Assembly: GCA_013314855.1 (NCBI GenBank)
Contig: JABUEW010000019.1
Span: forward strand, 1 to 45,368
Direction of reading: 5' to 3'
DNA length: 45,368 bases
DNA from: Bacillota bacterium
GTDB lineage: Bacteria > Bacillota > Clostridia > Acetivibrionales > DUMC01
Shown here: positions 293-4,814 of the stretch, piece after piece
Layout: each line of letters starts with the position of its first letter
Position numbering within the stretch: the stretch's first letter is position 1
Position numbers and translations under genes: made by a program
Notes under the pieces: model-generated
What the model was told of the DNA's origin: nothing
Databases searched by the model: none
The model's input: the letters and a program-made list of their open reading frames with translations, nothing else

Positions 293-757
293 TTACGTCG
301 GATGCTTTTCTAAGCTCTTCAATATCGATATTTTATTACCCTCCTTATTAAACTCTACCTTATCACACAACTTCTTAATAATTTTAATTCCTCGGCCTCT
401 TTCCTCTATATTGCTCCAGCAAAACGTGTCCTGGCTTTCTTCGCACTTTTCCAAATAAAAATTATAGTCATACCCTTCTCCATCATCGGTAACCATCATT
501 AATATACACTTATTTTTTGTAATGCCAACAGTTATCCTGACTAGCTTATCTTTATTTTCCTTATTACCATGTATTACTGCATTTAAAAGCAACTCATTGA
601 GAATTACTCTCAATTCAAAAAGAATATCATCATGAATAGCCCCACAATTATCAATTAAATATTGAATAACCTCATTTACAGTATAGCCTACAACTTCAAC
701 CTTGCTTGGAATCACTTTATTATAAGCATTTGAAAGCTCTAATTCTAATGAGTTCAA
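293..757 (-). CDS. RsbW-like HATPase (serine kinase / anti-sigma factor family), intact ATP site
   Basis: A 154-residue GHKL-type ATPase of the RsbW/SpoIIAB class, expected to be a cytoplasmic kinase of an STAS antagonist or an anti-sigma factor. The ATP-site motifs are complete: an N box with Glu55 and Asn59 (NELLLNA), a G1 box DDGEGYD around 91-97, and a G2 box ERGRGI around 119-124. A GGAAGGGAG ribosome site precedes the ATG. It is the last gene of the sigma cassette, 115 bases after the sigma gene, and lies directly before the rRNA promoter. Its completeness contrasts with the other RsbW-like protein of the cassette (2049-1624), so it may supply the kinase activity for the module; that is inference. 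Confidence 0.8.
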   Translation of the reverse strand: MNSLELELSNAYNKVIPSKVEVVGYTVNEVIQYLIDNCGAIHDDILFELRVILNELLLNAVIHGNKENKDKLVRITVGITKNKCILMMVTDDGEGYDYNFYLEKCEESQDTFCWSNIEERGRGIKIIKKLCDKVEFNKEGNKISILKSLEKHPT

Positions 758-872
758 GACACTCCCTTCCTCGCCACTTATTCTTATAATAAATACCCAT
801 TAGTGTTTACTCATAAACAAAAAATAGTTTTAAAATATAAACTAGCACAACAATTTAACCTATATTGGCCTA

Positions 873-1643
873 TTATTTTAAAATAATTCTAAGCTTATTT
901 AAGATTTTCTTTTCCATCCGAGAAATGTACATTTGAGACACGCCTAGTTTTTCGGCTATATTCTTTTGAGTCTTATTTTCATAATACCTTAATCTTATAA
1001 ACTCTTTTTCAATATCATTAAGTTTATTCATACTTTTTTCAAGGAAATCTCTGTTTTCTATCTTTTCAAATTCTTCATCTTCTTCTCCTATTGTTTCATG
1101 GAGTTCTATATTATCATCAGTATATGCATTTTGGTCAAAGGATGTCAAATTATAAACATTTTTTGATTCAATTATTTCCAGCACATTTTCCTCATCTATA
1201 TTCAAATAACTTGCAATTTCATCTACACGCGGCGGCCTTTGCAACTTTATATATAATTGTTCTTTTGCAAGATTAACTTTTTTGTAATCTTCATAGATTC
1301 TCCTTGGAATTCTAATTACCGAACCTTTATCACGGAAAAACCTTTTTATTTCCCCAATAATAGTAGGAGTTGCAAAACTGATAAATTTTACACCCCTTTC
1401 AGGGTTATAGCGCTCCACTGACTTAATCAAAGCAATAGAAGCAACCTGGAAAATATCTTCATATTCGACTCCCCTGTTGACAAACTTCTTCGATATAATT
1501 TCTGCTAGGTAAAGATATTTGTTAACAATTGCGTTTCTATTAGATATCGTAGGTTTTTCTTTATATCTTTTAAACATATCTTTATCATTATCATTATCAT
1601 TATCTGTAGGAAACGGTAGGGTATCATTTGCTTTCTGTTGCAT
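873..1643 (-). CDS. Sigma-B/F/G-type RNA polymerase sigma factor
   Basis: Sigma-70 family factor of the SigB/SigF/SigG group, about 256 residues. Region 2 is clear (roughly residues 40-110, with EDIFQVASIALIKSVERY and IIGEIKRFFRDKG), region 3 follows, and region 4.2 has a helix-turn-helix near 225-245 (KNIAEKLGVSQMYISRMEK). The basic patch IPRRI after region 2 is closer to SigB than to sporulation SigF. The frame stays open upstream to 1724, but the ATG at 1643 has GAGGAG about 10 bases ahead and overlaps the upstream stop by 20 bases, which fits translational coupling to the anti-sigma gene. The N-terminus carries a (DN)n tract encoded by a hexanucleotide repeat. The promoters it serves cannot be told from the window. 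Confidence 0.88.
   Translation of the reverse strand: MQQKANDTLPFPTDNDNDNDKDMFKRYKEKPTISNRNAIVNKYLYLAEIISKKFVNRGVEYEDIFQVASIALIKSVERYNPERGVKFISFATPTIIGEIKRFFRDKGSVIRIPRRIYEDYKKVNLAKEQLYIKLQRPPRVDEIASYLNIDEENVLEIIESKNVYNLTSFDQNAYTDDNIELHETIGEEDEEFEKIENRDFLEKSMNKLNDIEKEFIRLRYYENKTQKNIAEKLGVSQMYISRMEKKILNKLRIILK
1582..1604 (-). repeat. Hexanucleotide microsatellite inside the sigma gene
   Basis: About 3.8 tandem copies of TTATCA (plus strand) encode alternating Asp-Asn near residues 14-22 of the sigma factor. The unit is a multiple of three, so length changes would alter the acidic tail without a frameshift. Confidence 0.85.
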
Positions 1644-2049
1644 CCTTAATTTTCTCCTCAATTTTCTCCTCGACATTTTTAGACATAGATAATATATAAC
1701 TATTATCACCGCATAATTCAACATTATCCATAAGTGAGTTTATTATAGGTATAGCCAGCTCGTCCATCTCACTATTAAAAATACACTTTAGAGACTTGTC
1801 CTCACAATCGTAAACTATATTCAAAACTAATTTCCCAATATTAAAGATAATTCTATATCCGGAAGCGGTTTTACTTCCTATGTGGACCAGCTTGCTGCAA
1901 ACTTCAGATACGGCAACTTTTATATCTTCGATGGCCTCAATGTCAAAGCCTATGCGGTTTGCAATTCCAGATGCCGCAAGCCTTGCCACACTTACATATT
2001 CAGCTTTGAAAGGCAATAAAAGTTCAATGCAATCAACAGACGATTCCAT
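1624..2049 (-). CDS. RsbW-like anti-sigma factor with degenerate ATP-binding site
   Basis: 141 residues that match the RsbW fold over their length: the N-terminal segment (PFKAEYVSVARLAASGIANR), the N-box helix (EDIKVAVSEV) and the C-terminal LMDNVEL strand region are all in order. Yet the catalytic motifs are lost. The N-box Asn is Lys53 (SEVCSK where RsbW has SEACTN), the DxGxG G1 box is replaced by DCEDK (81-85), and no GxG loop precedes the LMD segment. It should therefore not bind ATP or phosphorylate an antagonist, though it could still bind the sigma factor. The start at 2049 has GAGGAG 7 bases ahead and lies 4 bases after the STAS stop; it overlaps the sigma gene at its end. This tight packing indicates an operon. 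Confidence 0.82.
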   Translation of the reverse strand: MESSVDCIELLLPFKAEYVSVARLAASGIANRIGFDIEAIEDIKVAVSEVCSKLVHIGSKTASGYRIIFNIGKLVLNIVYDCEDKSLKCIFNSEMDELAIPIINSLMDNVELCGDNSYILSMSKNVEEKIEEKIKDATESK

Positions 2050-2053
2050 ACCT

Positions 2054-2371
2054 TCACTCCTCAATAATAAATAATTTGTCAAGGCCAGTAATTGAAAAAA
2101 GCTTTTTTATATTACTTTTTAATCCAATTAAATGAATGTTATTTCCGTATTGTTTTGCCCTTTTCAAAGTACCTGCGAAAACACCCAGGCCTGTACTGTC
2201 AATATAGTTTAATTTACTGCAGTCTATTTTAATGTCAGTTTTCCGGCTATCAACAATATGGTATAACCTGTCCTTTAATTTTGAAGAGGTATAAATATCT
2301 GCCTCTCCTGAAACTAAAACTCTTGTGACTTCTCCTGAATATTCCTCTTTAATAATCAAATCGCTTGTCAT
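2054..2371 (-). CDS. STAS-domain anti-sigma factor antagonist (RsbV/SpoIIAA family)
   Basis: 105-residue single STAS domain. The phosphorylatable serine is Ser59 in the classic motif YIDSTGLG. In RsbV/SpoIIAA systems the unphosphorylated protein sequesters the anti-sigma factor and frees sigma; the kinase reverses this. A GAGGAGG ribosome site stands 9 bases before the ATG. Its start overlaps the stop of the J-like membrane protein by four bases (ATGA-type junction), and the degenerate RsbW follows after 4 bases, so the three are probably made from one transcript. Confidence 0.88.
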   Translation of the reverse strand: MTSDLIIKEEYSGEVTRVLVSGEADIYTSSKLKDRLYHIVDSRKTDIKIDCSKLNYIDSTGLGVFAGTLKRAKQYGNNIHLIGLKSNIKKLFSITGLDKLFIIEE

Positions 2372-3258
2372 TTTCTCATCGCCTCCTCGGAAGTATTTAC
2401 CAAAAGCTTAATAAATTCAACAGCATTATCGTAATGTTTTGCTCTTATACTTATAGCTGCAATCATTTCCTCTCCGGCAGTTTTCGCATCCGTAAGAATT
2501 TTGCTGTTTTTGACATTAATTCCGTAGATACCTTCATCTACCACTACTATTTTTCCTTCTTTATTTTCTTCTTCAATTTCCTCCCTGTACACTTTATCTT
2601 CCGGCAAACCCATCTCACTAACAATTTCATCCAGTTTCATAAATGCCCCTTGTTTCGCAAATTTTTCAAATTGAGCCTTGTCTAAAATCAAGACGTCTAC
2701 ATCCCCTACCGCTATCAATACCATTGCTTTTTGCAACATTGCCATCTGTACTTGAGGATCCTGTTTTTCCTGGGCTTCTGAAATTAAGATGTTTTCAAAA
2801 CTTACGGCCTCTATCGTCGGCATCCTGGATTTAATATCTTCTTCCAACTGTTCTGTTTCATTGCAGTAAACCTCACCCATAAAAACCACATACAAATCCG
2901 GGTCTACCCTGTTAACACAACCTCTAATCGTAGATATTATAGCAACAAGCATTATAATACCCACGATTATATGGATTTTGTAGTAATATAGGATATTTTT
3001 CAATTTATCCTCGTCAATTCCAAGCTTTTGTAATATGGGATTAGGCCTTTTACGTTCCTTCCCGTCATCCTTTGATTCAACTATATAGCCCATTAAAAGA
3101 TTATATGCTTCCGTTATTTTACCAAATTGCTCTTCCGAAAGCCCTTCATTATTACCGGCACGATACTTTCTTAATATTGTTGCATATCTTTTTTCTATTT
3201 CATTTTTCGATGCATCTTCTTTAACGCCAAGGACTTTATACGCTTCCTGTTTTTGCAA
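2368..3258 (-). CDS. Membrane-anchored J-like domain protein lacking HPD
   Basis: About 296 residues. Residues 5-60 resemble a DnaJ domain (YKVLGV..., a charged helix II, and a helix with ITEAYNLLMG), but the HPD tripeptide needed to stimulate Hsp70 is absent: the loop reads KYRAGNN. A cytoplasmic linker leads to one transmembrane helix (about 94-113), then an extracytoplasmic domain of about 180 residues whose segment GDVDVLILDKAQFEKF recalls substrate-binding-protein folds. I chose the TTG at 3258 because AAGGGGGG lies just upstream; the frame is open to a TTG at 3324 that overlaps the lysS stop. Placed between lysS and the STAS antagonist and overlapping the latter, it could be a membrane sensor feeding the sigma module (inference). 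Confidence 0.7.
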   Translation of the reverse strand: MQKQEAYKVLGVKEDASKNEIEKRYATILRKYRAGNNEGLSEEQFGKITEAYNLLMGYIVESKDDGKERKRPNPILQKLGIDEDKLKNILYYYKIHIIVGIIMLVAIISTIRGCVNRVDPDLYVVFMGEVYCNETEQLEEDIKSRMPTIEAVSFENILISEAQEKQDPQVQMAMLQKAMVLIAVGDVDVLILDKAQFEKFAKQGAFMKLDEIVSEMGLPEDKVYREEIEEENKEGKIVVVDEGIYGINVKNSKILTDAKTAGEEMIAAISIRAKHYDNAVEFIKLLVNTSEEAMRK

Positions 3259-3320
3259 TTTAAAACCCCCCTTACTTCCTTTATAAAATATATAGAAGTT
3301 TATAATTGAGGCCTTTATTT

Positions 3321-4814
3321 TCAAGGCTTTGGCTTCATAGTAGGAAACAATAGTACATCCCTTATGGAGTATGAGTCAGTAAGCAGCATAACCAGCCTAT
3401 CAACACCTATTCCCAGACCTCCTGTAGGCGGCATACCGTACTCCAGAGCATTTAAGAAGTCTTCATCAATCATATTGGCTTCTTCGTCTCCTGCCTCCCT
3501 CTTTTTCATCTGTTCTATGAACCTATCCCTTTGGTCCAACGGATCATTCAATTCAGAATAGGCATTTCCCATTTCCCTACCTGTAATAAAAATCTCAAAC
3601 CTCTCTGTCAACTCCGGTCTATCGGGTTTTCTTTTTGTAAGAGGAGAAATCTCTACCGGATAATCGTAAATAAATGTAGGCTGTATTAAATGGCTTTCCA
3701 CAAACTCTTCAAAAAATAAATAGAGCACTTCTCCCCATTTTATATTTTCTTTAAACTCAAGTCCTTTTTCTTTAGCAATTCTCTTAGCTTCTTCATTTCC
3801 TTTTACTTTACCAAAATCTATGCCAGTATATTTCTCTACAGCTTCAACCATAGTAAGCCTTTGCCATGGCGGCGTTAGGTCAATTTCCATATTCTGATAA
3901 ATAACCTTCATTGTCCCTAATATTTCCATTGCAACTGAAGAAATCAATCCTTCTGCCAGTTCCATCATTCCATTGTAATCAGTGTAAGCTTCATAAACCT
4001 CCATCATAGTAAACTCCGGATTGTGTTTTACGGATATACCTTCATTTCTAAACATACGTCCCAATTCATATACCTTTTCAAGCCCGCCTACAATAAGTCT
4101 CTTCAAATATAATTCAGGAGATATCCTTAAATATAAATCCATATCCAGAGTATTATGATGGGTAATAAAAGGTCTGGCAGCAGCGCCTCCGGGAATAACA
4201 TTCAATAAAGGGGTTTCCACTTCAAGGAAACCTCTTTCATCAAGATACCTTCTCACAGCTTTAATTATCTTTGTCCTGGTTATAAATGTTTTCTTCACTT
4301 CCGGATTGACAATAAGGTCAATATATCTTTGCCTGTATCTTAAATCAACATCTTTCAACCCGTGCCACTTTTCAGGTAAAGGCTGCAATGATTTTGCAAG
4401 TAATAATATGTTGTTGGCTTTTATTGAAATTTCACCTTTATGTGTTTTGAAAACATGTCCCTCTATACCTATAATATCTCCAATGTCATACTTCTTAAAG
4501 TCCTCATAAGCTTCTTCTCCAATTTCATTAATTCTTACATAAATTTGGATTTTGCCTTCTCTGTCTTGGATATCGCAAAAGGAAGCTTTTCCCATACTTC
4601 TTTTTGATATTATTCTGCCCGCTACGGAAACAAACTTCCCATCCATTTCATTAAAATTATCAATTATCTGTGAACTTGAGCTGCTGACATGGTATTTCAC
4701 AACTTTAAAGGGATCTTTATTCTCCTCTTTAAGTTCCTTCAATTTCTGTCTTCTAACTTTTAATATTTCGTTCAAATCATTAACTTCGCTAGCGTAGTCC
4801 AAACTGTCGGGCAT
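3321..4814 (-). CDS. lysS: Lysine--tRNA ligase, class II
   Basis: 497 residues, the usual LysRS length. The N-terminal anticodon-binding OB fold (about 60-165) is followed by the class II catalytic core, with motif 2 ([20 protein letters not shown]) and motif 3 ([13 protein letters not shown]) near the C-terminus. It charges tRNA-Lys in the cytoplasm. AAGGAGG stands 7 bases before the ATG. No T-box leader is visible upstream; instead a hairpin-rich element fills the gap to greA, which otherwise would be its operon partner. Confidence 0.97.

Follow-up and report, generated by a model that had tools for sequence, protein, structure and literature searches.

In textbook partner switching a single protein is both the lock on a sigma factor and the kinase of its antagonist, and its binding is coupled to whether it carries adenosine diphosphate (ADP) or adenosine triphosphate (ATP). 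What becomes of such a switch when the protein encoded next to the sigma factor has lost its nucleotide site? The question is raised by a locus near one end of contig JABUEW010000019.1 (assembly GCA_013314855.1), from a Bacillota bacterium of the order Acetivibrionales in the class Clostridia; the window referred to below is the whole 45,368-nucleotide stretch of this contig that was analysed. Here a STAS-type anti-sigma antagonist, an RsbW-like protein without ATP motifs (DEAD in what follows) and a sigma factor of the SigB/SigF/SigG family are encoded in succession, followed by a second HATPase (HAT2) whose ATP motifs are all in place. The reading we favour, at a probability of roughly 0.75, is that DEAD would be an anti-sigma factor without kinase activity, HAT2 the kinase of the STAS protein, and the sigma factor the one that transcribes the kinase by which it is shut off. 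The grounds for this are comparative, drawn from sequences and structural models.

An RsbW-like protein without an ATP site and a second HATPase

All four genes lie on the minus strand. The STAS antagonist (2054..2371; Pfam STAS, 1.7e-16; NCBIfam ant_ant_sig, 1.4e-20) keeps its phosphorylatable Ser59, within the sequence YIDSTGLG. DEAD follows at 1624..2049, with 141 amino acids counted from the ATG (Pfam HATPase_c_2, 7.6e-9); the end of its gene is overlapped by 20 bases by the start of the sigma factor gene (873..1643, 256 amino acids; NCBIfam TIGR02980, 1.5e-72), whose product scores 244 bits and is thus over the family cut-off of 234.35. HAT2 (293..757; Pfam HATPase_c_2, 3.2e-17) begins with a TTG start codon, with AGGAAGGGAG before it. 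A sequence-only reading of the window had described these four genes. All are real, and the coordinates and residues given for them hold; its central observation, of an RsbW-like protein without ATP motifs upstream of sigma, a STAS partner with its serine kept and a second HATPase with all the motifs after sigma, is confirmed.

In DEAD the Asn of the RsbW N-box is replaced by Lys53, the G1 site reads DCEDK in place of DxGxG, and there is neither an ATP-lid nor a GxG. The AlphaFold model (predicted local distance difference test score, pLDDT, 88.9) has B. subtilis RsbW as its best PDB match in Foldseek (6m36, E 4.9e-10), followed by mycobacterial UsfX and by SpoIIAB; model, Foldseek and Pfam agree that the protein has the GHKL fold of RsbW.

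What DEAD retains is the surface that would face its antagonist. In the crystal structure of the RsbW-RsbV complex, as described in the report on it (PMC7340262), RsbW touches RsbV through Arg23, Asp42, Lys44/Ser48, Glu49 and Tyr118, with Glu49 sitting at the phosphorylated Ser. DEAD of the window keeps R23, D42, K44, S48 and E49. Across the 149 proteins that we class as dead (defined below), R23 and E49 are invariant (149/149 each), D42 is found in 148/149 and K44 in 142/149, the remaining 7 having Arg at that position. The STAS Ser is kept in every one of the 215 STAS proteins found (215/215). Since both the contact residues of DEAD and the STAS Ser are kept, the binding face is constrained even though the ATP site has been lost. 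On the sigma side, the region aligned with the sigma contact residue D148 of SigF is an acidic stretch, with no clear match. Proteins annotated as anti-sigma kinases at these loci are, from their motifs, probably not kinases, which is a warning to annotators about that name in these genomes.

HAT2 has the opposite pattern of conservation. Its N-box, G1 and G2 motifs are intact in the window, and its model (pLDDT 85.5) is matched best by SpoIIAB among PDB structures, and also by RsbW. Among the 120 HAT2 proteins encoded in the same locus as a dead RsbW, the catalytic Glu and the N-box Asn are kept without exception (120/120); the strict form N..HGN is present in 111/120, DxG in 118/120 and [GN]RG in 118/120, the two without [GN]RG (L020 and L022) being cut off by the end of the locus. 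An Arg at the position of R23 occurs in just 18/120, within a stretch that aligns loosely. DEAD, in other words, keeps the contact residues, and HAT2 the ATP-binding and catalytic ones. A tree built from 67 selected rows sets HAT2 in a group of its own, apart from RsbW and from SpoIIAB (the placement of one very long row, L080, is unsure). Against PHROGs, HAT2 has no more than a weak match.

Distribution of the cassette and of the candidate HAT2 promoter

DEAD has orthologs in 36 of the 40 genomes of the order, the present one included. In the 30 order loci that were fetched the STAS, DEAD and sigma genes are always adjacent (30/30), and HAT2 comes next in 27/30, so that the gene order seen in the window (STAS, motif-less RsbW, sigma, HATPase) recurs among relatives; the other three loci stop at a contig end (L017 and L028) or are masked (L025). 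The N-box Asn and DxGxG are absent from all 30. The sequence-only reading had named intact motifs in relatives as the mark of a lineage-specific decay, and within the order there are none. Named relatives with the cassette include Acetivibrio straminisolvens (order Acetivibrionales), Herbivorax, Pseudobacteroides and Ruminiclostridium.

In the class as a whole the DEAD profile matched 181 of 391 genomes, and 114 of these loci were fetched. Together with the 30 order loci and 80 named loci (the best 80 of 159) they make 224 rows, which overlap and contain 196 distinct RsbW-like proteins. A protein was called dead if it has neither the N-box Asn nor the G1 Asp, and live if it has both plus GxG; by this definition 149 rows are dead, 67 live and 8 intermediate (127, 61 and 8 distinct proteins).

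Loss of the motifs and presence of HAT2 go together. The fetched locus also contains HAT2 in 120/149 dead rows, 0/67 live rows and 0/8 intermediate rows, or, counted as distinct proteins, in 100/127, 0/61 and 0/8. HAT2 is not adjacent in 29 dead rows, of which 5 are masked loci, 6 end near by at a contig end and 18 have a HAT2-family protein elsewhere in the genome; among these 18 are Caloranaerobacter (Tissierellales) and many small genomes with family code f47. No HATPase_c_2 match other than HAT2 passes the family cut-off in 14 genomes that combine a dead RsbW with an unlinked HAT2. A contrast of this kind is also found genome-wide, where it is independent of the length of the live loci: with HAT2 counted at 60 bits or more, and with 3 masked loci and 3 SpoIIAB loci excluded, HAT2 is present in 70 of the 73 dead-RsbW genomes of the class sample, 1 of the 28 live and 1 of the 7 intermediate ones. 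A motif-less RsbW and a separate, motif-bearing, kinase-like protein thus share a genome in 70/73 cases. Of the three dead exceptions, G109 does have an adjacent HAT2, which scores 53.4 bits, and in G295 and G220 a contig end cuts the locus. Outside the compared set, HAT2-type matches above 60 bits also occur in G168, G189, G231, G278 and G363; the DEAD match in G217 is weak only.

Some unlinked HAT2 genes occupy a common position apart from the sigma locus: in L295, L304 and L305 the gene adjoins an engB-like GTPase gene located after lon, and in two of these loci, L295 and L304, it also precedes typA (gene names assigned by eye). Separately, a few loci have RsbW-like proteins that are neither fully live nor fully dead. 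Six of family code f18 (L210, L212, L228, L231, L240 and L242) encode one beside sigma with half-degraded motifs, the Asp being kept in 6/6, the Asn in 4/6 and the G1 Gly replaced in 5/6; no STAS gene was found within the fetched stretch of any of the six. Two further loci are possible intermediates: L209 (genome G175), where the N-box Asn is kept, DxGxG is lost and a HAT2 lies elsewhere in the genome, and L104, which has an N-box Lys, keeps the G1 Asp and GLG, and belongs to a genome without a HAT2 match.

Between the sigma and HAT2 genes of the window, at 793..818 on the minus strand and 35 nucleotides 5' of the HAT2 start codon, is a candidate SigB-type promoter, GTTTAT-N14-GGGTAT. It is close, though not identical, to the C. 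difficile SigB consensus as given by PMC7494833, WGWTT-N13-17-(G/T)GGTWA. In the strict form GTTT-N13-17-GGGTA, the motif is present in the sigma-HAT2 gap of 62/116 loci (shuffles: mean 0.91, maximum 3); among the order loci it is present in 26/27, and among distinct gaps in 51/96. Elsewhere in the split systems, those with both DEAD and HAT2, it was found before STAS in 1/116, before sigma in 3/116 and before the DnaJ gene described below in 0/61. In live systems it stands before STAS in 10/66. Unlinked HAT2 genes carry it in 6/20 cases (shuffles: mean 0.11, maximum 2). All 17 genomes with an unlinked HAT2 that were tested have one SigB/F/G-family sigma over the cut-off, which lies at the cassette in 16/17 (for G217 its place was not fetched). 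The six promoter-bearing genomes are among the 17, and because the sole family sigma over the cut-off in them is that of the cassette, SigF or SigG does not explain the six unlinked promoters.

The first gene of the cluster, preceding STAS, encodes a DnaJ-domain protein (2368..3324 on the minus strand, start codon uncertain; Pfam DnaJ, 7.1e-9), so that the full order on that strand is DnaJ, STAS, DEAD, sigma, HAT2. It is present upstream in 25/30 order loci and could be the signal input of the cassette; a membrane segment is predicted in it by eye. Rfam and transfer RNA scans of the window found nothing. In draft genomes the cassette is often found no more than about 2 kb from a contig end (so in the window, at positions 1-290, and in many loci), as if a repeated sequence came next.

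A proposed circuit and its alternatives

In the circuit that we propose, DEAD would bind sigma and, in competition with it, the unphosphorylated STAS protein, which it would be unable to phosphorylate. HAT2 would be the ATP-dependent kinase acting on Ser59 of STAS, and this phosphorylation would leave DEAD free to bind sigma; the reverse step would fall to an RsbU-type phosphatase with its gene elsewhere. Given that HAT2 has a candidate sigma-type promoter of its own, from which it would be transcribed, active sigma would make the very kinase that shuts it off. We infer the binding and phosphorylation steps, the phosphatase, and the use of the HAT2 promoter by sigma from the comparisons above. 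The division of labour itself had been suggested by the sequence-only reading, and comparison now supports it well in the linkage of HAT2, the kept contact residues and the kept Ser; taken as a whole, with its biochemical steps, the suggestion is partly supported.

A candidate for the phosphatase is a conserved PAS-PP2C (RsbU-like) protein, its domains confirmed, which in the genome of the window is encoded next to a glutamine synthetase gene (L038, 1492-2577) and is matched at 1e-100 or better in 38/40 order genomes. Of the four genomes that lack a DEAD match, three have it as well (G003, G025 and G034; not G017), and for that reason its assignment to the cassette is only suggestive. Three loci, L084 (3660-6027), L093 (3646-6124) and L096, have the order STAS-DEAD-HAT2-PP2C with no sigma gene beside it; in L084 and L093 a receiver domain precedes the PP2C. 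In the genomes of L093 and L096 two other family sigmas resemble SigF and SigG by their neighbours, and in that of L084 one resembles SigF and a second was not placed. The target of DEAD in these sigma-free modules may not be a SigB-type sigma but something else. A further locus, L087, has STAS-DEAD-HAT2 without sigma beside it and ends there at the contig end; no family sigma over the cut-off was found in its genome.

The clustering of HAT2 with an RsbU-type phosphatase supports its acting on STAS, and it is also what a role like that of RsbT would produce. RsbT precedes RsbU in Bacillus, just as HAT2 directly precedes the PP2C gene in the three loci. On such an account HAT2 would bind and activate the phosphatase and so turn sigma on, another kinase would phosphorylate STAS, and the rarity in HAT2 of the Arg that contacts sigma or antagonist would be expected. 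We consider this unlikely. By sequence and by fold the closest solved relatives of HAT2 are RsbW and SpoIIAB, and these searches list no RsbT (the presence of RsbT in the PDB set searched was not checked). The one protein judged by eye to be of RsbT type, L033, is placed with SpoIIAB rather than HAT2 by a tree that is weakly resolved and gives it a long branch. HAT2 also occurs where RsbW has lost its kinase site, and in the 14 genomes where it is the sole HATPase_c_2 protein over the cut-off a second GHKL kinase that could serve STAS is not easily found.

If HAT2 is the STAS kinase, the distribution of promoters and modules suggests, tentatively, how the split reshaped regulation. Where an intact clostridial system has a SigB-type promoter, the STAS-RsbW-sigma operon follows it; in split systems what follows is almost always the kinase gene. 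Splitting might thus have moved the feedback, so that sigma transcribes its shut-off enzyme alone, in some genomes from a distant locus, and in Epulonipiscium- and Tyzzerella-type genomes the STAS-DEAD-HAT2-PP2C set might have left sigma altogether and control another target. This extension is a good deal less secure than the division of labour itself.

As a second alternative, HAT2 might be the anti-sigma factor (and kinase), with DEAD an anti-anti-sigma factor or a poison subunit in heterodimers with it. There is a precedent in M. smegmatis, where the kinase-less RsbW3 is reported to antagonise RsbW1, its binding partner (PMC7693655). The arrangement of the cassette fits this poorly, for it is DEAD and not HAT2 that sits between STAS and sigma, and HAT2 is unlinked to sigma in 18 loci. 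The Arg at position 23, universal in dead proteins, is in the minority in HAT2, which moreover groups apart from RsbW and is no recent copy of it. We regard the exchange of roles as improbable.

More doubtful still is the idea that DEAD, through some other mode of nucleotide binding, has remained a weak kinase or sensor, with HAT2 merely adding to its action. A GxG-like stretch persists in 16/149 dead proteins, the N-box Glu (E49) is invariant, and UsfX, which is also motif-poor, is called nucleotide-binding in the title of a reference. E49 is, however, an antagonist contact as well (PMC7340262), which explains its conservation and counts against a residual nucleotide site; the N-box Asn and the G1 Asp are both lost in all 149 proteins, and the lid segment is absent from the alignments. 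As for the DEAD gene being a relic on its way out, with the lost ATP motifs as its sign, this can be rejected: 15 members of the order keep 51-67% identity to the window protein, 21 alignment columns are invariant, the gene persists in 36/40 order genomes, and a loss fixed across the order and in many families of the class is not local decay.

Several observations weigh against the kinase-less anti-sigma reading, or limit what can be built on it. The contrast in adjacency is a little weaker than 0/67 suggests, because some live loci are short (53/67 have at least 700 bases past the sigma gene) and 3/67 are SpoIIAB operons (L258-L260). One live genome, G297, combines an intact RsbW with a HAT2-like protein of 69.5 bits, encoded beside a response regulator, and HAT2 could act on another STAS protein. 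The GxG-like stretches of 16 dead proteins belong here as well. For the promoter, the strict motif is missing from 54/116 sigma-HAT2 gaps, and the SigF consensus is similar to the SigB-type motif. A looser form is not enriched in the window at large (14 found, 12.3 expected), so that the promoter evidence lies in the conserved position, and a search of the genome of the window for a sigma regulon gave 23 sites against 15 control sites, with no clear regulon. Finally, Fisher's test of the genome co-occurrence gives 4e-20, a value that ignores relatedness: the sigma tree offers at most 3 independent pairs, 1 of them on starred branches, and the test of one origin for the dead form does not reject it (p of the approximately unbiased test, p-AU, 0.44, with 62 of the 123 sigma-tree rows), so that the Fisher value must not be taken for independent evidence.

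On the origin of the dead form the trees differ. That of sigma places it in at least two positions and that of RsbW joins the dead forms into one; a tree made with the motif columns removed has too few columns and needs 3 changes. From these trees we claim one to three origins. Several independent losses of the ATP motifs were considered and dropped, given the joining of the dead forms in the RsbW tree and the p-AU just cited.

Comparison with known systems

The split cassette shares with RsbV-RsbW-SigB of B. subtilis and with SpoIIAA-SpoIIAB-SigF the order STAS-HATPase-sigma, the fold, the antagonist-contact residues and the phosphorylatable Ser. It differs in that those systems leave sigma binding and phosphorylation of the antagonist to one protein, whereas here the sigma-linked protein is motif-less and a second HATPase has been added. 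A conserved lock without a nucleotide site would show which part of the switch logic is dispensable, and would allow the two activities to be measured apart. If the proposed reading is true, it also supplies a testable circuit with built-in negative feedback for an alternative sigma factor of the Acetivibrio/Ruminiclostridium group and of many small-genome anaerobes; no description of this sigma factor was found in searches of open-access papers.

The RsbT-RsbU pair of Bacillus, a module of the stressosome, resembles L084, L093 and L096 in placing a HATPase without sigma beside a PP2C phosphatase. HAT2, on the other hand, has its nearest solved structures in RsbW and SpoIIAB, and the split accompanies the loss of the RsbW kinase site.

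The nearest functional parallel is mycobacterial. The sequence-only reading knew of no described system with this layout, which does not hold for the principle: in the report on M. smegmatis (PMC7693655), RsbW1 lacks kinase activity but binds SigF, and RsbW2 is the protein that phosphorylates the STAS protein RsfB, with no binding to SigF. That the anti-sigma and kinase jobs can fall to two RsbW-like proteins was therefore already known from experiment in a mycobacterium. The same report places rsbW2 with rsfB, near a receiver-PP2C gene, as the kinase gene lies with the STAS gene near receiver-PP2C in L084 and L093. M. tuberculosis UsfX (structures 8jzt and 8ih8) has an Arg in place of the N-box Asn, a substitution resembling that of DEAD, although the DEAD profile matches Bacillus RsbW (2.9e-24) far better than UsfX (2.5e-3).

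The two arrangements also differ. According to the report cited, the M. smegmatis kinase gene is at a separate locus with rsfB, whereas Clostridia clade A has the four parts in one cluster; and, unlike in M. smegmatis, the kinase gene of clade A often has a sigma-type promoter. No description of the single-operon layout, of a sigma-type promoter on the kinase gene or of a clostridial case was found in searches of open-access papers. What is new here, beside the mycobacterial precedent, is the reach of the split system in the Clostridia, its assembly in a single cluster, the opposite conservation patterns of its two HATPases and the promoter on the kinase gene.

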